Shown one piece after another: positions 1 to 58,565 of a stretch of DNA of 64,000 bases (position 1 is the first letter of the stretch; each line of letters begins with the position of its first letter). The stretch comes from Bacteroidota bacterium (lineage in GTDB: Bacteria; Bacteroidota; Ignavibacteria; Palsa-1295). The DNA is taken from contig JAJPIO010000005.1 in NCBI GenBank assembly GCA_021324735.1, positions 1 to 64,000 of the forward strand, given 5' to 3'. Made by a program: the position numbers and the translations under genes. The notes under the pieces were generated by a model. That model was not told the DNA's origin and ran no database searches. It worked only from the letters and a program-made list of their open reading frames with translations.

Positions 1-163
1 AGCACTGATGAATGCCTTCCACGATCTCAGCGCCCCAATGCTCCGCACCTGCGATATTACGTTGATCGAGCCAGATGCTAAGACCGTGAGAGCGGAGTCG
101 TTCAACCAAATGAAGCGCTTGCTCCGAATCCTGCCGAGAGTATGATATAAAAATGTCAGACAT
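1..163 (-). CDS. TIR-domain protein, N-terminal part (runs off the window)
   Basis: The ATG complement lies at 161-163 and the frame stays open to the window edge, giving 54 residues that begin MSDIFISYSRQDSEQ and continue with WLDQ and WGAEIVEGI motifs. These match the beta-A strand, BB-loop and alpha-C region of the two complete TIR proteins upstream, so this is a third paralog. The start overlaps the stop of the preceding gene by 8 bases (ATGTCTGA), which fixes both the start codon and operon membership. The C-terminal part, expected to hold a TolB/FlgO-like domain and TPRs by analogy, is outside the window. Confidence 0.85.
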   Translation of the reverse strand, partial: MSDIFISYSRQDSEQALHLVERLRSHGLSIWLDQRNIAGAEHWGAEIVEGIHQC

Positions 164-1844
164 GAGCGCCTTCTAATTCCTCTATCATGGTTTGAAAATC
201 CTCTCGTTCTCGCAGCGAGTCGAGATCGGGATCGTTGCGAAAGGCTTCAACGTAGACGAATCCACGGGCGCGTGCATTCATAAGGTATTGCATCGCAAGA
301 TCGAGCTTCCCTGCTTTAGCAGCAAGGCATCCCAAATTATAGTGGGAGTCGGCATCCTTAACATTCTTCAGCGATTCGAGCAACTCCAAGACCTTCTCAC
401 TCCTGCCATCAAAAAAATAGATATTGGCAAGCCAGACACTCGCATGTTCGTCGTCCGGAAATAGTTTTAACCGCTTCTCAAAGAGAGGTATGGCTTGTCC
501 CGCAGCGGCCTTCGCGGCCACGTGATCGCCTAATCGATTATAGGCGGCGATGAGATTCCAATGAGCGGTTAAATAGTTGGGGCGGAAATGAATGCACTCC
601 TGGTAGGCTGCAGCCGCTTCGATAGCCCTGCCTGTTTGATAGTAAAAATACCCAAGGGCAAAATAACTATTGCCATCCGGAGAGACCACAACACACTTTT
701 TAGCCAGTTTTTCTGCTTCCTCTGTTCTACCCTGAAACATCCGTAAACGAGAGAGAATAGAGAGGCTTTCAAAATCATTTGGATCGGCACGCTGTCCGGT
801 TTCGATCAAACGCTCCGCTTCCTCGAGGTGCATTACGTTGCGATCGTACGAGCGATAGAGAGCAAGATGAGCATTAGCACCCCAAATGAACGCGGAAGCA
901 AAGCTAACATCTAATCGACCGGCTTCGAGATAGTGATATAATGCCCGTTCGAATCCTTGCTTTGTATTTCGCTCGATCTCTTCTCCGGCTTTAAGGAAAT
1001 GCTCGTAAGCAAGCGGATTTTCTGTTCGTTTGGCAATAACTTTCTGCTCTTCGCTGCTTGTCAAATGAAGCTCGAGCCCATGAACGACTTCTCGCGCGAG
1101 CGTTTCCTGAATTTCAAAAATGTCTTTGAACTGACCCCGATACGAATGCTGCCACAAATAATCGCCGGTATCGATGTCGAGCAGTTCGACGCTGATCTTT
1201 ATCTGATCGCTAAACTTGCGGACATTTCCTTCGATAAAATACCGGACATTAAGATCGCGCGCGATCTCGGTCGTTTTGCCCCTGAAGCCTTTGAACTCCA
1301 TCGAAGTTCGGCGGTCGGGAATGCGAAGGCTTTTAATATTCGACAAGGCACTAATAAGCTCGACCGTCAGTCCATCTGCGAACCACGTATTATCTTCACT
1401 GGCTGGTGAAAGATCTTCAAACGGTAAGATCATAAGAGACTTACGCGAGTCTTTCCGCAGAACCTTGGATATGCCATGCTTATGAGCACGTAGAATGGCC
1501 GGGAAATCAGAAATGGCCACGCGCTGCAATCCTGCAAGTGGATATTCGAACGAAGAAGGAAGTGATACGGACTGTAACTCGACTGGCAGTATTCGCTTTT
1601 GTTTTTCAAAGGCAAGCGTCAGCTCTTTAAGAACATTTTCGGACTCGGTCGAAGATGGAGATAGAAGAACGAGAAACGTGGAACACGAACTGATACCTTC
1701 AACGATCTCGGTGGCCCAGTGCTCGGCGCCGAAAATGCCGTGCTGGTCAACCCAAACGGTAAGCCCGTTCGTGCGTAGCTGATCCGCAAGCATCAGGGCC
1801 TGGTCCGAATCTTTTCGAGAATATGAGATGAAGATATCAGCCAC
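156..1844 (-). CDS. TIR domain / TolB-FlgO-like domain / TPR protein
   Basis: About 562 residues. An N-terminal TIR domain (DIFISYSRKDS at the start, WVDQHG, WATEIVEGI) spans roughly residues 1-125. A middle domain at about 135-270 (SLMILPFEDLSP, WFADGL, IEGNVRK, DIDTGDYLWQ) is the TolB/FlgO-like module usually found behind adenylate cyclase or CadC-type domains. TPR-like helices fill about 280-560. The Glu of the LKEL motif (about residue 74) sits where NADase-type TIR domains carry their catalytic Glu; enzymatic activity is inference. I chose the GTG at 1842-1844 rather than the open-frame start at 1886, because it aligns with the paralogs' N termini and gives an 8-base overlap (GTGGCTGA) with the preceding gene, the same arrangement as at the other end. 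No signal peptide, so probably cytoplasmic. Confidence 0.85.
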   Translation of the reverse strand: MADIFISYSRKDSDQALMLADQLRTNGLTVWVDQHGIFGAEHWATEIVEGISSCSTFLVLLSPSSTESENVLKELTLAFEKQKRILPVELQSVSLPSSFEYPLAGLQRVAISDFPAILRAHKHGISKVLRKDSRKSLMILPFEDLSPASEDNTWFADGLTVELISALSNIKSLRIPDRRTSMEFKGFRGKTTEIARDLNVRYFIEGNVRKFSDQIKISVELLDIDTGDYLWQHSYRGQFKDIFEIQETLAREVVHGLELHLTSSEEQKVIAKRTENPLAYEHFLKAGEEIERNTKQGFERALYHYLEAGRLDVSFASAFIWGANAHLALYRSYDRNVMHLEEAERLIETGQRADPNDFESLSILSRLRMFQGRTEEAEKLAKKCVVVSPDGNSYFALGYFYYQTGRAIEAAAAYQECIHFRPNYLTAHWNLIAAYNRLGDHVAAKAAAGQAIPLFEKRLKLFPDDEHASVWLANIYFFDGRSEKVLELLESLKNVKDADSHYNLGCLAAKAGKLDLAMQYLMNARARGFVYVEAFRNDPDLDSLREREDFQTMIEELEGAHV

Positions 1845-3561
1845 GCTGCAATGCCTCGACTCGTTTAAGCAACGCGTGAAACTCATCCATGGAGCGCAAA
1901 GGGCTTAGGTCCGGGTCATTGTGAAATAACTCAAAGTTCGAGAAGCCTACATCCAGTGCTCGTCCTAAGACCTGGAATGCCGTGGCAAAATCACCCAACC
2001 TGGAATAAATGCAGCCAACGTTATAGAGTGACACTCCATCGAGATCTGCCTTCTTTGTAAGTGGTGCAAGAGCTTCCAAGGCACGATCGCGTTCCTTCAA
2101 ATACTCGAGCAGGGTTGCATAGGCGACCGCCGCGTGCTCATCATCCGGTGAAAGCCGGAGACGTTTTTCAAAATGAGGAAGAGCCGCGCGAGCCCATTTC
2201 AATAGACGTTCGCGATCTCCTGCTCGATCCGCAGAGATGACGAGATTGAAGTACGACGAAAGATTCTCATCATTAACCTTGATAGCTTGCTCATACGGTT
2301 CGAGAGAAAGCGCCGGCTGACCAATCTCATCATAAAAAAAAGCAAGGGAAAAATGGCTGGCGGCGTTCTCCGGATCCAGGCGGATATATTCTTTCGCAGC
2401 GGCTTCTGCTTCAGCAAACTTCCCTTGCATGCGATAGACCGATGAAAGCGGTTGAAATGCGGAAGCGAATTCCGGTCGAATTTCGAGAGCCCGCTTTGAA
2501 AGCGACTCTGCTTCTTCCAATAATTTCGGATCACGCTCGTATAACCGGTAAAGCTCGGTTAAAAGATATGCTTTGAAACGTAGCGCCCCGGTATAATTCG
2601 GATCCAGTTCAATTGCTTGTGAAAGCAAGCGTATTCCAAGGGCATATCCTTCCCGTGTCTGACGTCCCTGATATTGGTCTGCCTTCAGGTAAAGCTCATA
2701 TGCCTCGCTATTTTCAGTATCCCGTTCGTGGAGCTTTTTCTTTTCACGTGTTCCAAGGTGGACTTTTAAACCTTGCACAACCTTTTCGGCTACCTTTTCC
2801 TGGATATCGAAGATGTCATTCATCGTCCCTTTCATCGAGTCCTGCCAAAGGCTATCTCCGCTTTCGATATCAAGCAAGCGTACGCTGATCTTAATGTTGT
2901 CACCGAACTTTCGCACATCGCCTTGTACGAAATAGCGAATCCGCATTTCCCGGGCGTATGCAGTAAGTTGCCCTTGATATCGTTTATACTCCTTTGTCGC
3001 TTGGTTATGTGCAACGCGGAGCGCCTTCACATTGGAAAGAGCGCTGATGAGTTCGGAGACCATGCCATCGACAAACCACTCATTATCCCGCGTCGGCGAT
3101 AGGTCTTCGAAGGGCAAGACCATCAAGCTCTTTTTACCATCCTCTTCACGAACGATCTTTGGCGCCTGTGGCGTAGTCGTCGGGGCCAGGCCCAGCTTTT
3201 CAAGTGCCCGGATGATCGCATCGATATTCGTCATCGGTGCTCGTTGCACCCCTGCTAAGTGATACTGCAAATCTTCACTAAGCTGTACCGGCTCTATATC
3301 CAGTGGCAGTATCTTCTTTTTCTTTTCCGATGCCAGAGCGACTTCTTTGTGTACGTTCGTCGAGTTATTCGATGCATGCGAGAGCAGCACGACCATAGCC
3401 CGGCACTGGTCTATCGCTTGTACGATCTCACGAGACCAGCTGGTGGCGACCTCTATTCCCTGCTGGTCGATCCAACAGGAGAGACCGGCCGACTGCAATA
3501 GCTCCGCCAACTCGCTGGCATAAGCGGTATCCGTTCGGGAATATGAAATAAAGACGTCCAA
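1837..3561 (-). CDS. TIR domain / TolB-FlgO-like domain / TPR protein, first gene of the array
   Basis: 574 residues and the promoter-proximal member of the array. The TIR domain is at 1-130 (MDVFISYSRTD, CWIDQQG, SWSREIVQAI, with HKEV Glu73 at the expected catalytic position). The TolB/FlgO-like domain is at about 143-290 (SLMVLPFEDLSP, WFVDGM, FVQGDVRKFGD, DIESGDSLWQ). Long TPR repeats follow (AIELDPNY, RPEFASAFQPL, LDPENAASHFSLA). The domain order equals that of many class III adenylate cyclases with the cyclase swapped for TIR. It lies 80 bases after murQ on the same strand. TIR proteins in bacteria act as NAD-cleaving immune effectors or as scaffolds; which applies here cannot be seen. 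Confidence 0.85.
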   Translation of the reverse strand: MDVFISYSRTDTAYASELAELLQSAGLSCWIDQQGIEVATSWSREIVQAIDQCRAMVVLLSHASNNSTNVHKEVALASEKKKKILPLDIEPVQLSEDLQYHLAGVQRAPMTNIDAIIRALEKLGLAPTTTPQAPKIVREEDGKKSLMVLPFEDLSPTRDNEWFVDGMVSELISALSNVKALRVAHNQATKEYKRYQGQLTAYAREMRIRYFVQGDVRKFGDNIKISVRLLDIESGDSLWQDSMKGTMNDIFDIQEKVAEKVVQGLKVHLGTREKKKLHERDTENSEAYELYLKADQYQGRQTREGYALGIRLLSQAIELDPNYTGALRFKAYLLTELYRLYERDPKLLEEAESLSKRALEIRPEFASAFQPLSSVYRMQGKFAEAEAAAKEYIRLDPENAASHFSLAFFYDEIGQPALSLEPYEQAIKVNDENLSSYFNLVISADRAGDRERLLKWARAALPHFEKRLRLSPDDEHAAVAYATLLEYLKERDRALEALAPLTKKADLDGVSLYNVGCIYSRLGDFATAFQVLGRALDVGFSNFELFHNDPDLSPLRSMDEFHALLKRVEALQRG

Positions 3562-4618: not shown

Positions 4619-6481
4619 CTAAATATCGTGTTCCACGTGGAACGTGGAATGCCGGTGCACAGCGACCATCAAAATGGCAGCATCGGATGGTGTCACACCT
4701 GGAAGCCTTGAGGCCTGCCCTATCGTGCGCGGTTGGACTTTGGCTAGTACCTCTCGAGATTCCTTACTGATGGTAGTTAACCCATGAAAGTTGAAGTTTA
4801 ATGGAATAACCCTTTCCTCACTATCCCTTAGCCGAGCGATCTGCTGCTTATGCTGCTTAACATACCCTTCGTAAGCTATCTCGGTATCGATAAGGGTAAG
4901 CAAGTCTTCTCGAGGCAATAGCTGCGCTTTTAGTCCCTCATTTGCTGAGTCCTGAAGATATTGCCTGAATGACCCGCGCTTTGCCTTGATCTGGCTTTTT
5001 ACCGTATCCCTTACTAATGGATCGGTCGAAACTTTAATTTTCTCTGTCTCTGTCCATTCCATGGCTTTGGCAATGAGATCTCGCTTTTCTCTAACAGATT
5101 GCCATTCGGGATCAGAGGTCAATCCATAGGAATGCGCACGCTCGGATAAACGGAGATCAGCATTATCCTGCCTAAGTAAGAGACGATGCTCCGCACTCGA
5201 GGTAAACAGGCGATACGGCTCTTCCTGAATTTTATTTATCAGGTCGTCGATCAGTACGCCTATATATGCTTCGTCCCGACCGAGAATAAATTCAGGCTTT
5301 CCAGATAGCTTAGCAGCAGCGTTAATTCCGGCCACTAATCCCTGACCGGCCGCCTCTTCATAGCCGGAAGTGCCATTTACCTGACCCGCGAAATACAGTC
5401 CTTCAATGTGTTTGCTTTCCAGTGTGTGATGGAGCTGATAAGCAGGGAAGTAATCATATTCTACCGCGTAGCCTGGGCGGAGCATGTCGACGTTCTCCAA
5501 TCCCGGCAATGTCCGTAATGCTTCAAGTTGGATATCGGCGGGTAGGCTGGTAGAGAAGCCGTTTACATACACCACATCACCGTCGGCTTCTTCTGGCTCG
5601 AGAAAAATGTGATGTTGTGACTTATCTGCAAAACGGACGATCTTATCTTCTATTGACGGGCAATATCGCGGTCCTTTACCCTGAATGACGCCACGAAACA
5701 TTGGGGATTGCTCGAATCCATTTGCCAGGATTTCGTGGGTCTTCGTGGATGTATAGGTAAGGTAGCAGGAGATGGAGTTTGTAAGACTACTTCTCGTTCG
5801 GGAGGAGAAGGGAATGGTCTTCTCATCGCCGGGCTGCACCTCGAGGCCCGAAAGATCGATCGATTTAAGCGAAATACGTGGGGGAGTACCGGTTTTAAGC
5901 CTGGCAGTCTGCAGTTTTAAGGCTCCCTCAGGCTCGGTACTTAAGGATGCCGCTCTTTCTCCATATCTACCGCCAACAGACTGCCGGAGGCCAGTATGCA
6001 TCACCCCGTTAAGGAAAGTACCTGCACATACAATAACCGCCTGGGATAGCAGGCGATCTCCATTAGCCAAAACAACACCTACCGCTTTGCCGTCCTCGAT
6101 CCAGATCCTGGAAACTGAAGCCTCGCAGATGATATCCGGATCAAGTTCTCGAAGTCGACGTTGGGCCACAATAGGGTAGAGGCTGCGGCTAACCTGGCTA
6201 CGGGGCGACCACACTGCTGGCCCTTTGGATCGATTAAGCATCCGAAATTGCAATGAGCACTCATCGGTGATCTCGCCCATTAAACCGCCAAGTGCATCGA
6301 TCTCCTTTACGACCTGCCCCTTCGCCGTGCCGCCTACCGCCGGATTACAGGATAATTCTCCTACCTTGCTCGCAGACATAGAAAGTAAGCGAACCATCAG
6401 CCCCATTTTATGAGCTGCATTCGCTGCCTCTATACCGGCGTGGCCGCCTCCGATGACTATGATGTCTGCAAACTGTTCCAC
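4619..6481 (-). CDS. mnmG: tRNA uridine-5-carboxymethylaminomethyl modification enzyme MnmG
   Basis: 620 residues. FAD-dependent subunit of the MnmE-MnmG complex, which installs cmnm5 groups on U34 of tRNAs. The Rossmann motif GGGHAG lies at residues 12-17, followed by the family signatures [28 protein letters not shown] and [17 protein letters not shown]. The start is GTG at 6479-6481: an in-frame TAG lies nine bases upstream, so no earlier start is possible. That GTG is the centre of a palindrome matching parS, and a second copy lies in the last codons before the stop (Phe-His-Val-Glu). It follows mnmE on the same strand with a 43-base gap, a classic adjacency near replication origins. Confidence 0.97.
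4629..4644. other. parS-like palindrome at the 3' end of mnmG
   Basis: TGTTCCACGTGGAACG holds a perfect 14-base palindrome, GTTCCACGTGGAAC. It differs by one base from TGTTCCACGTGGAACA, known as a parS site in Pseudomonas and close to the general bacterial parS. It lies inside the last codons of mnmG and an extra half-site (TTCCACG on the minus strand) abuts it. ParB binding is inferred; no parA or parB gene is in the window. Confidence 0.7.
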
Positions 6482-6489
6482 GTGGAACT
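6474..6489. other. parS-like palindrome over the mnmG start codon
   Basis: TGTTCCACGTGGAACT contains the same 14-base palindrome as the site at 4629-4644, about 1.85 kb away. The GTG start codon of mnmG forms its centre. Two copies within 2 kb, next to mnmE/mnmG, fit the clustering of parS sites near oriC seen in many bacteria. Confidence 0.7.
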
Positions 6490-6524
6490 ACAATAATTAG
6501 AAATTAGCAATTAATAAATAATAG

Positions 6525-7919
6525 TCACTTGCCTATGCACATTTTAGAGAATATATAGTCGAGGCTTTCTTGCCCAACGTTTATTCCTAAGAGTTGTGAC
6601 AATCTAGAAGCGGCAAGACGTAGTTCCTCGGATAAGATCGCCGGCTCTGCATCGCTTCGTACTTCCCGTAAAGAGACTAAGACCGATTCCAACACCGATC
6701 GCTCCGACTCACTAAGGCTAATTTGATTGAGCGTTTCCGAACGCTGTTCGAATTCGTGCAAAAGCCATGCGTGAAATAGCTCGATCCCATCGCCGGTCAG
6801 TGCCGATAGCGACAAGCCTTCATTCCAAGAATCGAGATCGATCTTATTGTGAAGAAGAATTTCTCCATCGGAAAGAATAGGGGAGCGGCCGCCAGGCTCG
6901 GTTACTCGCAGAGAAATATCGGCATGGCGAGCGGCTTCCGAACCGAGCGAAATACCTCGCGCCTCGAGCGACTCATCGGCTTCGCGCAAGCCGGCCGTAT
7001 CCACAAGCTTTACACGAAAGCCGCCGACATTGATAAACGCTTCAACATAATCGCGCGTGGTGCCGGGAATATCGCTGACAATGCTACGCTCGAAATTCAG
7101 CAGTGCATTAAAGACGCTGCTCTTGCCAACATTCGGCGGACCTACGAGCGCAACCGTAAAATAGCCCGTATTTTCGCGGCGATTCGCGCTATTCCGCACA
7201 AGCAGTTCGATCTCACTCGTCACTTCTGCAATGCGAGAATCGAAGTCGTAGATCTCGATCTGGTCGCTATCACCGAAGTCTATTTCTGCATCGACCTGAG
7301 CGATAAGGCTAATAAGCTTGTCATGCGCTGACCGAAGGTGCACATATTTCTCAGCGAGTGCAAGCTCCGCTCCTCGCAGCTCGCGCTCGCTTTCGGCATT
7401 AGCTTTAACGGAAATAAGCTCTGCTTCTTCGAGTCCGATCTTACCATTAAAGAAGGCGCGCCGCGAAAACTCTCCAGGCTCGGCGTGGCGTGCACCGTTC
7501 GCTACTAGCAATGCGACAATTTCCCGCGCTATTACAGGCGAACCGTGGCATGTGATCTCACACAGGTCCTCGCCGGTATAGGATCGGCGAGCGCGGTACA
7601 CATGTATCACGACATCATCAATTGTGCGTCCCACCGTACCGCGTACCACCTCTTCAGAACCGCGTACCCCCTCCTCAGGAGTGAAACGGATGAGAAGGGG
7701 GCTAGCATCGCCCACGATGCGCGGGGGTGGCGGCGTGGAGCCTACAACACTGGTGTAAATAGCCCCGCCTCCTCGTGCCGCAAACACCGACGCCGAATCG
7801 CCCACAATTTTCCCCAACATGCCGATCGCATCCGGACCCGAAATGCGCACGATAGCCAGCGCACTCCGGCTCTCCGGTGTGGCTATCGCGACAATAGTAT
7901 CATGGAATAGGCCCAGCAT
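6525..7919 (-). CDS. mnmE: tRNA modification GTPase MnmE
   Basis: 464 residues. Partner of MnmG in wobble-uridine modification. N-terminal folate-binding domain with SYTGEDLCEITCHG (about 113-126), then a helical domain interrupted by a G domain: GPPNVGKSS (260-268), DIPGTTRD (283-290), DTAG (307-310), HNKID (357-361). It ends in CIGK, the C-terminal Cys motif of the family. Unusual is an insertion at about residues 40-98, where most MnmE proteins are shorter; it contains a seven-residue tandem repeat (EEGVRGS then EEVVRGT), visible in the DNA at 7635-7676 as an imperfect 21-base duplication. ATG start at 7919; mnmG follows downstream. Confidence 0.96.
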   Translation of the reverse strand: MLGLFHDTIVAIATPESRSALAIVRISGPDAIGMLGKIVGDSASVFAARGGGAIYTSVVGSTPPPPRIVGDASPLLIRFTPEEGVRGSEEVVRGTVGRTIDDVVIHVYRARRSYTGEDLCEITCHGSPVIAREIVALLVANGARHAEPGEFSRRAFFNGKIGLEEAELISVKANAESERELRGAELALAEKYVHLRSAHDKLISLIAQVDAEIDFGDSDQIEIYDFDSRIAEVTSEIELLVRNSANRRENTGYFTVALVGPPNVGKSSVFNALLNFERSIVSDIPGTTRDYVEAFINVGGFRVKLVDTAGLREADESLEARGISLGSEAARHADISLRVTEPGGRSPILSDGEILLHNKIDLDSWNEGLSLSALTGDGIELFHAWLLHEFEQRSETLNQISLSESERSVLESVLVSLREVRSDAEPAILSEELRLAASRLSQLLGINVGQESLDYIFSKMCIGK

Positions 7920-8064
7920 GGTGTAGTGCTGAGTGCTAAGTGTTGAGTGCTGAGAATCAATCCCAAAAGCGACCGGTTGGGGTGTAACAATTCATTCTCC
8001 CAGGGATTGTTACCTTAGAGCAATTCCCGGTCGAATTGCCCTCACCAAAAATTGTGGTTGTGGT

Positions 8065-9933
8065 ATGAAGACACGAGTTCTCATTCCGGTTATCCTCGCC
8101 GTCCTTAGTGCACACGTTGCAACGGCCCAGTCGTGGAAGTACATCGCGCCGATGAAGCATGCAAGGGGAGAACACCGGGCAGTTCTTTTGCAGAACGGAA
8201 AAATCCTGGTTATCGGAGGACAGGATGGTAATTCCGCGCTTCAATCTTGTGAATTGTATGATCCAAACTCTGATACGTGGACCGAAGCGGCATCCCTGAA
8301 CGTAGCAAGATATAGATTCCAAGCTTTTGTTCTTAACGACGGGCGTGTTTTCGTTGCGGGTGGACTCTCAGCAATCGGCATTAATCCACCAACACTCACA
8401 ACGGCCACCTGCGAAATTTATGACCCAAATAAAAATGAATGGAGTCTTGCAGCATCGATGAGTGCACCTCGCGAAGGATTTGCCGCCTGCAAGATCTCAG
8501 ACGGTCGAATTGCAGTGTTTGCTGGATTAAACGCGAATGACGGCTCCTACCCAAGTTCATGTGAAGTTTACGATCCAAAGACAGGTCAGTTCAGCTCGCT
8601 CCCTCCAATTCCTACACCTGCTGCCTTTATGTCTGCGGTGTATGATCCCGTTACAAATACGGCCTTTATTCCGGGAGGTACTTATGGTTTTTTAAGTAGG
8701 ATACATAAACTTACGCAAGCATTCGGCTTCTCAACAGGGACGTGGTCCTCCAAAGATACGATGCTCGAACTTCAGGGAGGAATGTACAGTACGATTTTAG
8801 CCCCGACAAATGATTGCGTAATTGTGTCTGGAGGGAACGACTATCTTGGACATCAGATCGGAAATATTGAAGAATTCGATGTCAAGACCCAAGTGTGGAG
8901 GTTTACCGATTCAATCGATTCTCGATGGAATCACAATGCAACGCTTGTCGATGATTCAATCCTCATAACGGGAGGAGTCTATACACTTCCAAGTTCTTTA
9001 GAAGCATTTCGGACGGCTTGTTGGTGGTATAACCCGACCACAGGTCGGGCTCGACTCGCACCTCCATTGCTGGAAGGTGAGACGAATGAGGCTCCGATTT
9101 ACTACGGCTACCATAAAGCTGCAGGCTCGTGCATCCTGACCAAGAGCTTTTACGTTTTCGGCGGCCGTATTGGCGATAACTTGTTTCACAATCGATGCGA
9201 AGTACTAGAACTGGCCGATTCAATGCCTATCTCCTCGGATTTGTCTTTGCATAGATCAATCGCCGCATCCTACTATGGCTTGCCTGACTCACTTCCTATG
9301 CTGCTCGATGTGAATGCGTCGATAAATCTAGACTCAATCTGGCCAACCATAAAGCAAATTTCTGGCACCTACAGCTGGGATTCCTCCGTCGTGAGATTCG
9401 CCGGTTACATTCCACCGAACGGATGGACTACAACAGGACTTGTCTCCCACGGTAATTCAGAAGACTTTACGATTCAAAACCTCGCGTCTTCCCCCACACA
9501 TCCACTTGATCTTGGGACCGCCCTATTTCTGCCCAAAGTGCAAACACTTACGGCGAGCAACGTTGATCTTCAGAATTTGACACTGCAGGCTGGAAGCAAG
9601 TTGCTGACTCCGTGCCTTAGTAGCAACGAAGATCAGCACTGGGCGGTAAAAGTGCTAGGATTGGAAGGGGTAGAGTCATCGAGCGAAGTGTCCGGCTTTT
9701 CAATTGATTGGACGAGGATTGAAAACGGAGTGCTCACCGTCGGTTACCATTCACCCGAATATTCTCGTGATATTCGATTCGAGCTATACGACATCGTTGG
9801 TCGCAAGGTAAGAGTAATCGAGTCTATCGGCACAAACCCGCTCTCGATAAACATCCAGGATTTATCAGAGGGTACATATCTCCTTCGTGCTTCCGATCGG
9901 TCAAGTGTGATCTCAAGAATGATCATAAAATGA
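8065..9933 (+). CDS. Secreted Kelch-repeat protein with T9SS sorting domain (copy 1)
   Basis: 622 residues. Signal peptide at 1-21 (ending ATAQ). At least five Kelch-type repeats at about 25-385, seen as ILVIGGQDG, VFVAGGLS, IAVFAGLN, FIPGGTYG and FYVFGGR with paired CEIYDP or CEVYDP strands, predict a beta-propeller. A second domain (about 385-530, LDVNASINLDSIWP, YSWDSSVVRF) resembles cohesin-like or big beta-sandwich modules. The last 80 residues (FELYDIVGRKV, LSEGTYLLRAS, ending RMIIK) form a type A T9SS sorting domain, so export to the surface by T9SS is likely. The stop overlaps the start of the next gene (ATGA). The two Kelch genes lie between mnmE and yidC on the opposite strand, apparently inserted into an otherwise conserved cluster. 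Ligand unknown. Confidence 0.88.
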   Translation: MKTRVLIPVILAVLSAHVATAQSWKYIAPMKHARGEHRAVLLQNGKILVIGGQDGNSALQSCELYDPNSDTWTEAASLNVARYRFQAFVLNDGRVFVAGGLSAIGINPPTLTTATCEIYDPNKNEWSLAASMSAPREGFAACKISDGRIAVFAGLNANDGSYPSSCEVYDPKTGQFSSLPPIPTPAAFMSAVYDPVTNTAFIPGGTYGFLSRIHKLTQAFGFSTGTWSSKDTMLELQGGMYSTILAPTNDCVIVSGGNDYLGHQIGNIEEFDVKTQVWRFTDSIDSRWNHNATLVDDSILITGGVYTLPSSLEAFRTACWWYNPTTGRARLAPPLLEGETNEAPIYYGYHKAAGSCILTKSFYVFGGRIGDNLFHNRCEVLELADSMPISSDLSLHRSIAASYYGLPDSLPMLLDVNASINLDSIWPTIKQISGTYSWDSSVVRFAGYIPPNGWTTTGLVSHGNSEDFTIQNLASSPTHPLDLGTALFLPKVQTLTASNVDLQNLTLQAGSKLLTPCLSSNEDQHWAVKVLGLEGVESSSEVSGFSIDWTRIENGVLTVGYHSPEYSRDIRFELYDIVGRKVRVIESIGTNPLSINIQDLSEGTYLLRASDRSSVISRMIIK

Positions 9934-42313: not shown

Positions 42314-42321
42314 TAAATTTG
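42314..42321 (+). promoter_or_regulatory. Putative -7 promoter element of the PEBP gene
   Basis: TAAATTTG matches TAnnTTTG and lies 43 bases before the start codon at 42364. No clear -33 element at the expected spacing. Confidence 0.4.
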
Positions 42322-42363
42322 CTTATTATTGCGCATTATTCTTGCATTTGTCGGAGGAAGTTT

Positions 42364-42939
42364 ATGCGAATACTCGTGTGCTTTTTACTTTTAGTAAGTG
42401 GAGGTTGTAAAATGAACGCCAAACAGAACGGCCAAGCGGACTCAAACCACCATGACGAGGCTCTGGTAGCGACGGCCCCGATCACCGTAAGCTCATCCGC
42501 TTTTACGAATGGATCTCCAATCCCACAACGCTACTCGTGTCAGGGTGATAATATTTCTCCCGGATTAGCATGGGGAGCTCCTCCATCGGGTACTCAAAGC
42601 TTTGCGCTCGTCTGCGAAGACCCCGATGCACCAAGTGGATTATTCGTGCATTGGGTCCTGTATAATATCCCATCGACCGAACGTGGGCTCGCTGAGAATA
42701 TTCCGACGAAGGACTCTCTCACCAACGGCACACATCAAGGAAAGAACGGTGCAAATAAAACGGGCTATACGGGTCCGTGTCCTCCGCCGGGGAAACCACA
42801 TCGCTATTACTTCAAGGTATTCGCTCTCGATGAAAAGCTTACTTTAACAGGTGATGTCGATCATGATAAACTGATGAGTGCGATACAGGGCCATGTCCTC
42901 GGCGAAGGGGAAGTGATGGGGACATACCAGAGGCAATAA
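42364..42939 (+). CDS. YbhB/YbcL-family (PEBP) lipoprotein
   Basis: 191 residues from the ATG at 42364, which has GGAGGA 5 bases upstream and gives a proper lipoprotein signal (RILVCFLLLVSGGC, lipobox SGGC). PEBP fold: SFALVCEDPDAPSGLFVHWVLYNIP contains the ligand-site DPDAP and HW motifs, and GPCPPPGKPHRYYFKVFALD is the second signature. The family binds small anionic ligands; the physiological role in bacteria is unclear. Likely anchored to a periplasm-facing membrane leaflet. Confidence 0.9.
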   Translation: MRILVCFLLLVSGGCKMNAKQNGQADSNHHDEALVATAPITVSSSAFTNGSPIPQRYSCQGDNISPGLAWGAPPSGTQSFALVCEDPDAPSGLFVHWVLYNIPSTERGLAENIPTKDSLTNGTHQGKNGANKTGYTGPCPPPGKPHRYYFKVFALDEKLTLTGDVDHDKLMSAIQGHVLGEGEVMGTYQRQ

Positions 42940-42975: not shown

Positions 42976-43070
42976 ACCCTATGTAGTATTATATCCCGAA
43001 TACTGCTTTTTTCTGCTATTCCCTGTTATAGGTGCGACCTTTTTCGCACTCGCTCCTCTTACCCTATGTA
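42976..43070. promoter_or_regulatory. Direct repeats upstream of the sigma-factor gene
   Basis: ACCCTATGTA occurs at 42976-42985 and again at 43061-43070, 85 bases apart, the second one ending 17 bases before the sigma gene start. Between them lies a small hairpin (GTGCGA/TCGCAC). They could be binding sites for an autoregulatory factor; function unproven. Confidence 0.4.
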
Positions 43071-43087
43071 ACCGCGGTACACAACGC

Positions 43088-43762
43088 ATGAACCTAAAAC
43101 GAAACGGTTCGTCCAATACGGGCGAGCTGTCAGTGCAAAGCAATATAGAGGCGAAGCAGCAAGCATTTCTTGCCCTGCTTACCCCGGTATTACCGTCGCT
43201 TTCACGGTTCGCAAGCGCAATGTGCCGCAACCACAATGGGCGCGATCCAGAGCGCGCAAAGGACCTCGTAAGCGAGACGATTCTAAAAGCATTCGAAAGT
43301 TTCGATCGTGTTCGGGAGCATCAGGCATTCCAGAGCTATCTTTTTACGATCGCGGTACGCCTTCAGCGGGACGAGCGATCGAAAAGAAACCGCTGGATGC
43401 CATTCTCGAAAGATCATTACGAAATATCGACCGATTCCGAGAATGCACCGGATGCCAATGCAGACATCGACACACTGTATGCTGCGTTGGCAACTTTGCC
43501 AAAAGAGCAACGAGAAGCAATCGTTATGAGCGAGATCGTTGGACTGAAGCTGCAAGAAGTAGCAGAGATTCAACACTCCTCGCTTTCGGCGGTGAAGTCG
43601 AGAGTATCGAGAGGCAGAATGAAACTCGCTGAGCTGCTGGGGGTGAGTGAAGACGCAGAGAGAGCCTCTGCCGAGAGCACTACCTTACGAAATAACTCAT
43701 CGGCAAACGGCCATAACCTCTTCCACGCGCGCTTTGCGTTCCAGGCAAAGGAGAAATTATGA
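43088..43762 (+). CDS. ECF-type RNA polymerase sigma factor
   Basis: 224 residues. Region 2 at about 35-110 (RFASAMCRNH, AKDLVSETILKAFESFD, FQSYLFTIAVRLQRDERSKRNRW) and region 4 at about 135-190 (LATLPKEQREAIVMSEIVGLKLQEVAEIQHSSLSAVKSRVSRGRMKLAELLG, cited in part: VKSRVSRGRMKLAELLG). Short N- and C-terminal extensions have no known motif. Its stop overlaps the start of the next gene (ATGA at 43759-43762), as is usual for a sigma factor and its membrane anti-sigma partner. Confidence 0.92.
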   Translation: MNLKRNGSSNTGELSVQSNIEAKQQAFLALLTPVLPSLSRFASAMCRNHNGRDPERAKDLVSETILKAFESFDRVREHQAFQSYLFTIAVRLQRDERSKRNRWMPFSKDHYEISTDSENAPDANADIDTLYAALATLPKEQREAIVMSEIVGLKLQEVAEIQHSSLSAVKSRVSRGRMKLAELLGVSEDAERASAESTTLRNNSSANGHNLFHARFAFQAKEKL

Positions 43763-45462
43763 AAAAGACGACGAATACATCTCTTAACAATCTTTTCCGC
43801 GCGGCGCACGGGGAAGCGGAGCCAAATCTCGTCTCAAACGAAGAAGCAAAAGATCTCCTCGCTCGTCAGGTCATGCATAGTGTACCGAGCACACAATCCA
43901 TAGGACAGCAGCTATATAAGCGACTGTTCTCCACACCACTCAAACTCGGAATCACAGCTATGACCACCGCATCCCTAATTACGCTTGGACTATTAATCCT
44001 TCAACCGGGATCATCCAATACACCGAAGCATATTTTTCCAAAGCCCGCTGTCGCATCTTCTGTCGAGGCAAAGCAGGCGACCTCCGCTCATGCGAGACTG
44101 TCGCAGCCTTCCGATGTCGCCACACCACGACGTATAAAAGAACTACCTGCAACACAAAACCTCGTTATAACAAAGTCTACGCCCCCTGTTACTGCTACAC
44201 CCAAACTACCAACCGATAGCCTAAAGCCTTTCGACCTTACAGTCGACCAACTGGCCCAACTGGGTATAACATTAAATGAGTCTGGTGATATCATAGTATT
44301 TGAGAAGACACCCAACGGCCAATCCCTGGAGCGCTATTCTTTCCCTCCAAAATCTGGCGTTCAACTCGCATTGGGCATTCCGGCCAAGAACGTGCAAGGT
44401 CTACAATTTCTGGATCATTTGCCGCGGCTGGTTACCGAAGTCAATGGAACAAAACGCATGTTCGCATTCGAGCGTGGTACCGGTTTTACCAAGCTCAACG
44501 GTGGTTCGCTGGATACCTTTCAGATATACTCGAAAGAAGTCGTCGCTCCGCAAACCGATGAAACGCCCGATTCAAATCGATGGGTCAAGGTCTTTGATGA
44601 TTCCTCCACCGCTCACTACTCGAATGGACAAAAGATCCAATTCAATATCGATACAAGTTTGAAATCGTTGGGTATCGATCGTCAAAAAGTCATGCATGTA
44701 AAAGTAATGGTGCGAGAGGATGCCGTATTAAAGTCAGATTCTAAGGCGTCTTCTTTCTTCGCGGATGAACTGAGCGAGAGCGATTCCGTAGTACCTCCGG
44801 CGATGAAAGCTCATTTGCGTGCTCTGAGCGTCTTGCTGAAACGTCAGGGATCGGATCCTCGCAAAGTCAAATCCGATAATCTCCCGGCTGGGGCTTATCG
44901 TGACAGCGTCATTGCTGTCGGTAACGAAATCTCGAAGCTAAGTGTGTCCAGCGATGGAACTGTAATGCTGAATCTTAAGACCCACACCGATTCCGTAGGA
45001 GATATTCTTAGCACACTTCGATCTTTCCGTAAAGCCAATGAGGAATACACTGAAAACGAGATTCCCCTCGATCACCTCATTCCGATCCGAGTGCGCAACA
45101 ACAATCTCGATCACCCGAACGAGCTTATTTTCTGGTACGAACCCTCGCCCGAACTCACGAACATGCTTCCGAAAGCGAGCTACCCCTATCGGGCACCTGT
45201 ATCGCAGCATCTTGACTTATCGGTTTATCCCAACCCCACGAACGGGCTTTCTAACCTCCATTATGCACTTAAAGATGGGAAGCAGGCGGCTTTTGCCGTG
45301 CATGATCTTCTCGGTAAAAAACTGCTCGATCTCGGATCATCCTCAAATGCAACAGGTGATTTAAAGATCGATCTTTCGTCCCTCGAGGCAGGCGTCTATC
45401 TTCTTATCGCAACATCGGATGATGGCGAGCGCTCTATACAGCGAATTGTCCTCAGTAAATAA
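43759..45462 (+). CDS. Membrane protein with T9SS sorting domain, putative anti-sigma partner
   Basis: 567 residues. A cytoplasmic N-terminal part of about 60 residues (NLFRAAHGEAEPN, SNEEAKDLLARQVM) is followed by one transmembrane segment at about 61-82 (LGITAMTTASLITLGLLIL) and a large periplasmic region. That region holds a Ser/Thr/Pro linker, two related blocks (VDQLAQLGITLNESGDIIVFEKT and a later SLGIDRQKVMHVKVM), and at 490-567 a clear T9SS type A domain (LSVYPNPTNGLSNLHYAL, AVHDLLGKKLLDLG, LEAGVYLLIATSDDG, IVLSK). Overlap with the sigma gene supports a regulatory partnership. The segment is not a cleavable signal peptide, so a sorting tail on an inner-membrane-anchored protein is unusual. 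Followed by a terminator. Confidence 0.75.
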   Translation: MKKTTNTSLNNLFRAAHGEAEPNLVSNEEAKDLLARQVMHSVPSTQSIGQQLYKRLFSTPLKLGITAMTTASLITLGLLILQPGSSNTPKHIFPKPAVASSVEAKQATSAHARLSQPSDVATPRRIKELPATQNLVITKSTPPVTATPKLPTDSLKPFDLTVDQLAQLGITLNESGDIIVFEKTPNGQSLERYSFPPKSGVQLALGIPAKNVQGLQFLDHLPRLVTEVNGTKRMFAFERGTGFTKLNGGSLDTFQIYSKEVVAPQTDETPDSNRWVKVFDDSSTAHYSNGQKIQFNIDTSLKSLGIDRQKVMHVKVMVREDAVLKSDSKASSFFADELSESDSVVPPAMKAHLRALSVLLKRQGSDPRKVKSDNLPAGAYRDSVIAVGNEISKLSVSSDGTVMLNLKTHTDSVGDILSTLRSFRKANEEYTENEIPLDHLIPIRVRNNNLDHPNELIFWYEPSPELTNMLPKASYPYRAPVSQHLDLSVYPNPTNGLSNLHYALKDGKQAAFAVHDLLGKKLLDLGSSSNATGDLKIDLSSLEAGVYLLIATSDDGERSIQRIVLSK

Positions 45463-45486
45463 GCAATATCATCTAAAGAAAAAAAT

Positions 45487-45517
45487 AAAACCCTTCTCCG
45501 TTTAAGAGAAGGGTTTT
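45487..45517. terminator. Bidirectional terminator
   Basis: AAAACCCTTCTC (45487-45498) pairs with GAGAAGGGTTTT (45506-45517). It lies between the convergent anti-sigma-like and tmk genes. Confidence 0.92.
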
Positions 45518-45535
45518 ATCATTTGTAACGTCTCT

Positions 45536-56987: not shown

Positions 56988-58565
56988 TCATTTCGCTTCG
57001 AGCGTTATTACCGGCAGTATTACTTCTTCCAGGGAGATTCCGCCATGCTGGAACGAATCCCGATAGTAATTGAGGAATTTATGATAATCAGTCGGATAAA
57101 CGAAGTAATAGTCTTCCTTGGCGATAATATAATTGCTCGCCGATCCACGAACCGGTAATTTATAATCTTCCGGTCGTTTGATGATCATCGCTTGCTTCTC
57201 TTCCGCTTTAACATTTCGGCCATACTTGTAGCGCAGGCTCGTAGAGGTCTCGCGGTCACCGATCACTTTCGCGCCTCGTAAGCTTCGTATGGAGCCGTGG
57301 TCGGTTGAAACGACGATCTTAAGATTCGGCACCGTTGCCAATGCTTTGAACATATCGAATAAGCTCGAATGCAAAAACCATGAACGCGTTAACGAACGAT
57401 ACGCACTTTCATCCGGAGCGATCTCCTTTAAGATGGGGGAATCGCTGCGTGTATGCGCGAGCATATCCACAAAGTTCACGACGATCGCGCTCAAGTGATT
57501 TCTCGCATGCTGTGTAATATTTTGAGCGATCGATGCTCCGTAATCACGATCGATGATCTTGATATATTTAGGCTCTTGTCGCAATTTAATTCGCTTGCGT
57601 TCGAGCAATTTCGAAAGCATGGCTGCTTCATCGCGATTATGCGAATTTTCGTCATCCTCATTGGAAGACCACGTTTGAGGAAACAGCTTGCCGAACTCGC
57701 TCGGAAATAACCCTGAAAAAATAGAATTGCGAGCGTAGGGGGTCGCAGTTGGAAGGATACCGAAATGATAGTCACGCGTGATCTTATACAGATTTCGCAG
57801 CTCCGCCTCCATGATCAGCCATTGATCGAGCCGCATACAATCGATCACGAAGAACACAACGTTCGAACTTGTCTGGAGTTGTGGTAGCACCCATTGTTCG
57901 ATCACATCGGGCGACATCGGCGGCCGGTTGCCAGCATTGGACTCCACATAAATGGTATTGACCCAATTACGATAATTACGCTCGACAAACTTTCCGAATT
58001 CTGCATTCGCTTCACGCTTTTGGTCGAGTAACGTTTGTTTGAGTCCTAATCCGGTATACTGATCGAACTCCAACTCCCATGCAACGATCTTTGCATACAG
58101 CTCCGTCCAATCCTTCGCTGTCGACGCGTTCATAAGGTCGAGCGACATTCGCGCAAAACCTTCCGTATAATCGCGCGAGACCGCCTCACTTACGATCTGT
58201 CTGCCTTCTAAAAATTTCTTGACAGCCAACAACACCTGCGTTGGATTTACCGGCTTTGTAAGATAGTCCGATATTTTTTTCGCGATGGCCTGCTCCATTA
58301 GATCTTCTTCTTCGGATTTTGTAACCATCACGATGGGTGTTTCCGGGCTCTGAGCTTTGAGTGCTTCGAGCGTTTCTAGCCCTCCGATCCCCGGCATATT
58401 CTCATCGAGAAACACCAGATCGACCGGCTCTTCGGGAAACAGGGCGATAGCATCCTCGCCGCTCATTGCTGTGCGAACGGAATAACCACGTTGCTCGAGG
58501 AGCATAATGTGGGGTCGGAGAAGGTCGATCTCATCATCGACCCAGAGAATATTTCCTTTGGCCAT
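56988..58565 (-). CDS. porX: PorX, T9SS two-component regulator with PglZ domain
   Basis: 525 residues. Receiver domain 1-120: ILWVDDE acidic pocket, phospho-acceptor Asp54 in FLDENMPG, Thr82, Lys104 in LTKP. The linker helices (TEGFARMSLDLMNASTAKDWTEL, cited in part: MSLDLMNASTAKDW) lead into an alkaline-phosphatase-like PglZ domain at about 210-525 (VFFVIDCMRLDQW, LPTATPYARNSIFSGLFP, STDHGSIRS, ending GGISLEEVILPVI). In Porphyromonas PorX is phosphorylated by PorY and regulates T9SS, and its PglZ domain is an enzyme with phosphodiesterase activity. Its presence shows a T9SS in this organism. ATG start; the tsaE start lies 45 bases downstream. Confidence 0.94.
   Translation of the reverse strand: MAKGNILWVDDEIDLLRPHIMLLEQRGYSVRTAMSGEDAIALFPEEPVDLVFLDENMPGIGGLETLEALKAQSPETPIVMVTKSEEEDLMEQAIAKKISDYLTKPVNPTQVLLAVKKFLEGRQIVSEAVSRDYTEGFARMSLDLMNASTAKDWTELYAKIVAWELEFDQYTGLGLKQTLLDQKREANAEFGKFVERNYRNWVNTIYVESNAGNRPPMSPDVIEQWVLPQLQTSSNVVFFVIDCMRLDQWLIMEAELRNLYKITRDYHFGILPTATPYARNSIFSGLFPSEFGKLFPQTWSSNEDDENSHNRDEAAMLSKLLERKRIKLRQEPKYIKIIDRDYGASIAQNITQHARNHLSAIVVNFVDMLAHTRSDSPILKEIAPDESAYRSLTRSWFLHSSLFDMFKALATVPNLKIVVSTDHGSIRSLRGAKVIGDRETSTSLRYKYGRNVKAEEKQAMIIKRPEDYKLPVRGSASNYIIAKEDYYFVYPTDYHKFLNYYRDSFQHGGISLEEVILPVITLEAK

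Follow-up and report, generated by a model that had tools for sequence, protein, structure and literature searches.

An ECF sigma factor and a membrane protein that ends in a T9SS sorting domain are encoded by overlapping genes in the 64,000-nucleotide stretch of Bacteroidota DNA analysed here (hereafter the window). Gene position and overlap, predicted topology, a conserved N-terminal head and the co-diversification of that head with the sigma factor make it very likely, judging from the sequences, that the two proteins form a sigma/anti-sigma pair. The membrane protein is best read as a variant, with a T9SS tail, of the anti-sigma factors that span both membranes (Dma-like). We lean towards the fuller proposal that an ECF sigma factor is paired with a transmembrane anti-sigma factor whose tail docks at the outer-membrane end, and that a change there frees the sigma factor. 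The architecture is solid, conserved and apparently undescribed, as a literature search found no description of a T9SS-tailed anti-sigma factor; the signalling mechanism is what we infer from it. The pair is widespread. Its membrane protein links a putative sigma-binding head with a T9SS signal in a single chain, and gene expression could in this way be coupled directly to conditions at the outer surface or in the secretion machine. The pair also bears on how bacteria gauge T9SS function and outer-surface state, including the input to PorXY-SigP in Porphyromonas gingivalis.

Organization of the operon and of the membrane protein

The first gene (43088..43762, + strand) encodes a 224-aa protein with Pfam matches over cut-off to Sigma70_r2 (PF04542, 6.5e-9) and Sigma70_r4_2 (PF08281, 2.5e-14). 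Regions 2 and 4 are the only sigma regions in this protein, as in an ECF factor, and the assignment is also supported by a 16-partner alignment. By the ORF coordinates, its stop codon and the start codon of the second gene, which encodes a putative membrane anti-sigma factor of 567 aa with a T9SS tail (43759..45462, +), overlap in a shared ATGA, as the first-pass annotation of this DNA had read. A Shine-Dalgarno sequence for the second gene, AAAGGAG (43747..43753, +), lies within the sigma gene and suggests translational coupling. A terminator-like hairpin called on the minus strand (45484..45520) separates the pair from a convergent thymidylate kinase-like gene, so the operon probably consists of the sigma and anti-sigma genes alone. 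Upstream lies a gene judged by eye to be YbhB/PEBP-like (window 42319-42939, +), and the end of a similar coding sequence is also found upstream in two relatives (L036 and L038), so local synteny is kept. In the first of these, a close relative, the sigma gene is apparently frame-broken ahead of an intact anti-sigma gene (L036, 2064-2850). Near the start of the window (156-3561, -), two tandem genes have, by eye, a TIR-like N-terminus and a tetratricopeptide-like C-terminus.

The membrane protein can be divided into seven parts. Residues 1-61 (43759..43941, +) are a predicted cytoplasmic sigma-binding head, recognisable in alignments by the motif LxxLFxxAR.EA..xS..E...LL, and residues 62-82 (43942..44004, +) form a transmembrane helix according to hydropathy and charge bias. 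A variable periplasmic tether rich in Pro, Ser and Thr (residues 83-155; 44005..44223, +) leads to a conserved first part of the ectodomain (residues 156-245; 44224..44493, +; LtpeQLAqLGI ... PRLVT..G.KR), which also occurs in secreted homologues. A fast-evolving middle (residues 246-433; 44494..45057, +) is followed by the LIPIxV...LIFWYEPxPE motif region ahead of the tail (residues 434-480; 45058..45198, +), where W459 is invariant across 34 divergent aligned members, and finally by the T9SS type A C-terminal sorting domain, or CTD (residues 489-567; 45223..45459, +). Among close orthologues, identity is highest at both ends of the protein (head plus transmembrane helix 56%, tail 58%); it is 48% in the LIPI-WYEP region, 39% in ectodomain part 1, 24% in the tether and 18% in the middle, which is 29% gapped.

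A cytoplasmic N terminus and one transmembrane segment had been proposed in the first pass, and this topology is again predicted when 67 relatives are considered. The protein has a single hydrophobic segment, residues 63-81, with a net charge of +3 before it and +2 after it; over the relatives the mean net charges are +2.6 and -0.2, and the inside is the more positive in 59/67. In all 67 the segment begins between residues 37 and 84 (median 54), deeper than an ordinary signal peptide would lie, which makes one unlikely; AxA occurs near the end of the segment in 10/67. A cleaved signal peptide would have marked the protein as ordinary cargo, T9SS type A cargo being expected to have a cleavable Sec signal peptide. 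What precedes the transmembrane helix here is a 61-residue charged head, and the versions with signal peptides are separate, different-looking genes. A cytoplasmic head followed by a single transmembrane helix is the predicted layout, as in transmembrane anti-sigma factors. The head matched no anti-sigma family in a Pfam scan, and outside the tail there was no significant Pfam or NCBIfam match of any kind, the zinc-binding ASD, FecR and RskA included. Named anti-sigma domains are common in transmembrane anti-sigma factors, though not required. A PDB sequence search with the ectodomain gave no match and no binding fold was recognised; the full-length AlphaFold model was poor (pLDDT 41), with the helix/strand pattern alone interpretable.

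The tail, previously described as a canonical type A domain, was confirmed. Residues 489-564 of 567 match Por_Secre_tail (PF18962) in Pfam with an E of 2.7e-10, and the NCBIfam model TIGR04183 matches at 2.4e-11. PF18962 is matched by 38/38 aligned members, and an NP motif stands at the expected position in 61/67 tails. The tail is modelled as a beta sandwich (pLDDT 74-85 across the core). In a comparison with PDB folds the CTD of mirolase, a T9SS cargo (8qb1), ranks first, and the translocon-bound CTDs 8gl6 and 8gl8 are also among the matches. The tail is a genuine CTD under constraint, its conservation being judged against other parts of the same protein.

A CTD fold can serve structurally too, as is indicated by anti-sigma proteins in which the ectodomain-CTD module is repeated in tandem, two or three copies in all (L035, L045, L047 at 5032-8322 on the minus strand, L048 and L049), and in which the internal CTD copies are degenerate and have lost the PNP motif. 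The tail might accordingly be an exapted Ig-like domain of the periplasm, which would serve in folding or dimerisation of the ectodomain and never be recognised by T9SS, and the missing K/R at the end of about half of the tails would fit this as well. Against it, the terminal copy is always last and, unlike the internal copies without PNP, has the PNP...G...GxY...R pattern even where members have diverged, and the tail is no less conserved than the head. We hold exaptation to be improbable.

Recurrence of the gene pair, co-diversification and promoter

The same fusion was sought in related genomes and was found at dozens of loci. A search with a narrow alignment yielded 3 loci, and with profiles that leave out the tail, about ten families of the host's class proved to have the architecture: profile A4 (the N-terminal half) has matches in 36/294 genomes of the class and profile A7 (the whole protein without the tail) in 21 genomes. 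Outside the class, A7 weakly matched four genomes, in linker-like regions where sigma genes were absent. Within the same genus and family, each complete relative consists of a sigma gene, an ATGA or a near overlap, a head-transmembrane unit, an ectodomain and a tail. A second, paralogous pair is encoded on contig C15 of the same genome (L035), where the sigma gene is followed by that of a 778-aa protein with a head, a transmembrane helix and two CTD-like domains, one internal without a PNP motif and the other terminal.

Nearly all head-profile matches lie directly downstream of an ECF sigma gene, with the ATGA overlap in most relatives. In the broader-profile searches, a CTD ends all complete sigma-linked matches examined except L112, L179 and L200, a tally that excludes the frame-broken L199 and the doubtful L203. 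The strictest test was profile A5, which covers the first ~105 residues (head and transmembrane helix), with matches counted to E 1e-4 and the head included. A T9SS CTD was present in 70/78 complete A5 matches and other modules in 8, and 4 more were cut by contig ends; this 90% is not a census, since the profile seeds are themselves CTD-tailed. An ECF sigma gene adjoins the match on the same strand in 34/35 further A5 loci. A profile search counts about 150 PF18962 domains in the 3.55-Mb genome of the host, and even so the order of sigma gene, head-transmembrane unit and tail is beyond chance, because it recurs at dozens of loci in about ten families.

Behind the head and an ECF sigma gene, the non-CTD ends include an SLT transglycosylase (L179), WD40 (L281) and TPR (L284) modules and, by eye, a PD40-like propeller with a degenerate tail (L200). 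In other cases the protein has a terminal Phe and a C-terminus called barrel-like from this C-terminal signature alone (L112, L279 and L283; weaker matches L286, L288, L290-L292 and L297); those that were scanned have no Pfam match. Four further homologues (L186, L187, L190 and L207) have no sigma neighbour and retain an ectodomain of the same kind and the CTD, and an N-terminal Sec-like hydrophobic segment replaces the head and the deep transmembrane helix. The ectodomain-tail unit therefore occurs in two settings: in proteins that look like ordinary cargo and, in anti-sigma proteins, as their outer half. In four members of one family (L103, L109, L110 and L193), a TonB C-terminal domain (TonB_C) lies in the ectodomain between the transmembrane helix and the tail, a possible second outer-membrane contact.

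Sigma and head have also diversified together. Their pairwise distances give a Spearman correlation of 0.35, which was reached in 0/500 shuffles (shuffle mean 0.17), compared with 2/500 for sigma and tail and 40/500 for sigma and ectodomain. The shuffles swapped partners solely within the same genome (65 pairs in all; 22 genomes contributed more than one), so the species effect is removed and the shared inheritance of linked genes is still in play. Read in this way, co-diversification shows a stable putative sigma/head partnership rather than contact. These results also bear on whether the protein is ordinary T9SS cargo that shares an operon with a sigma gene by coincidence. The real CTD, in a genome with so many, would allow for such an accident, to which we give hardly any credence: there is no signal-peptide pattern but a long charged head and a positive-inside bias, in other genomes the same head, again behind a sigma gene, is joined to modules that are not cargo, and the head co-diversifies with sigma.

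A conserved motif just upstream of the sigma gene marks an ECF-type operon promoter, TGCGACCTTTT-N12-CTCTTA (43033..43061, +). The pattern TGC(G/C)AC(C/T)TTT-N13-CTCTTA (TGCSACYTTTN13CTCTTA) has 11 exact matches in 13 family genomes, 10 at sigma/anti-sigma pairs and one at a deletion remnant (L224), and a reversed-pattern control is near zero. Related sites upstream of 24/56 distant sigma genes outscore the best shuffled control. The remnant (L224, 1501-1828), in a genus relative, has the promoter and the sigma start fused to the last CTD residues, possibly through an assembly fault. An inverted-repeat element, TGTAACCGCGGTACA, lies between the promoter and the start codon (43067..43081, +) and occurs at the same place in L037-L039. 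Conserved inverted repeats between promoter and sigma start, present here and upstream of sigma in L035, L045 and L047-L049, vary by sublineage, being of the CCGCGG type or TGACCGGTCA.

The first-pass annotation had suggested looking for a sigma target motif upstream of T9SS genes. In the host genome the sole exact match is at the window pair itself, no T9SS-gene targets of the conserved promoter were found, and a regulon search found no site above control beyond the two pairs, although weaker promoters could be missed. As the conserved promoter marks the operon and nothing else, autoregulation is likely. The earlier reading is supported as to a very likely sigma/anti-sigma pair and the recurrent fusion; its proposed link to T9SS genes through a sigma motif found no support.

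Possible signalling from the outer membrane

We suggest that the N-terminal head would hold the sigma factor at the inner membrane, that the flexible tether and the ectodomain would cross the periplasm, and that the T9SS type A tail would dock at the outer-membrane end, with the SprA-PorV translocon as the simplest candidate site. Anchored in the inner membrane, the protein could not be released as cargo is and would sit between both membranes as a strained or conditional tether. The trigger at the outer-membrane end could be the occupancy of the translocon, a pull by the motor, cleavage of the PorU type or a ligand that the exposed ectodomain binds. The signal would be relayed to the head, probably via regulated proteolysis, and the freed sigma factor would transcribe at least its own operon. 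The host genome encodes SprA, four PorV-family proteins over cut-off and an RseP-type site-2 protease. SprA is found in 291/294 genomes of the class and is so nearly universal that its presence or absence is uninformative on T9SS dependence. A PorX-type response regulator (Response_reg and PglZ; window 56988-58565, -) is encoded about 11.5 kb from the pair and resembles the activator of SigP in P. gingivalis.

What the tail would report can be considered in the light of Flavobacterium johnsoniae, in which T9SS substrates bind PorV in the SprA pore and exit CTD-first, and the motor is required for extraction rather than loading (PMC10994853). Given CTD-first exit and motor-driven extraction, a CTD protein with a membrane anchor could be loaded and then retained without leaving, and the tension or cleavage of its tether could report the state of the translocon. 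That T9SS activity is what the tail reports is a plausible hypothesis. More specifically, the protein may be a secretion-state sensor whose tail loads SprA-PorV and whose anchor resists extraction, with pulling, stalling or cleavage releasing sigma, and we put this forward tentatively. If true, the transcription machinery would read T9SS function directly, in a type IX counterpart of FlgM coupling.

T9SS might instead do no more than bring the ectodomain to the outer membrane or across it, so that the protein would span both membranes and an external ligand or surface contact, and not T9SS activity, would be the signal. The homologues with N-terminal signals and the same ectodomain suggest that an extracellular existence is possible, TonB_C has been added in four members of one family, and both PorA (PMC7712824) and the Dma factors (PMC13088901) are thought to sense at the surface. 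Against such a surface receptor, the ectodomain middle evolves fastest (18% identity), which would be odd for a conserved ligand, and the ectodomain has no recognised binding fold. We regard the receptor as rather unlikely. The preferred reading, a tail docked at the outer-membrane end, leaves room for either kind of trigger.

Comparison with known systems

Two known kinds of anti-sigma factor share parts of this design. FlgM is a small soluble anti-sigma factor that is exported whole by the flagellar T3SS. The protein described here would likewise be tied to the state of a secretion machine, as proposed, but unlike FlgM it is membrane-anchored. Transmembrane anti-sigma factors of the RseA type are released by DegS/RseP proteolysis. 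The predicted N-in single-pass layout resembles that of RseA, and the genome encodes an RseP homologue, whereas RseA lacks a secretion tail.

In P. gingivalis, PorA is signal-peptide cargo with a CTD and acts via PorY-PorX on SigP (PMC7712824). As in that PorXY-SigP pathway, a CTD protein here would feed ECF sigma control; unlike PorA, it is the membrane partner encoded with the sigma factor (PMC7712824).

The closest likeness is to the Dma anti-sigma factors, which span both membranes and insert a C-terminal beta-barrel in the outer membrane (PMC13088901). The shared features are an ECF sigma neighbour, an N-terminal sigma-binding domain (putative here), one transmembrane helix, a long disordered tether and a C-terminal module that reaches the outer membrane (presumptively here). 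The present proteins differ in having a T9SS sorting domain in place of a C-terminal beta-barrel and come from a different class, and the likeness drawn here is one of layout; the partner sigma of Dma factors belongs to ECF21. Some of the relatives found here themselves have Dma-like, barrel-like ends (L283, L288, L291, L292, L297 and L112). One anti-sigma head combined with several envelope modules would extend the Dma idea beyond beta-barrels, and, if true, the beta-barrel (Dma-like) and T9SS-tail versions would amount to a single kind of anti-sigma head fitted with either of two outer-membrane plugs.
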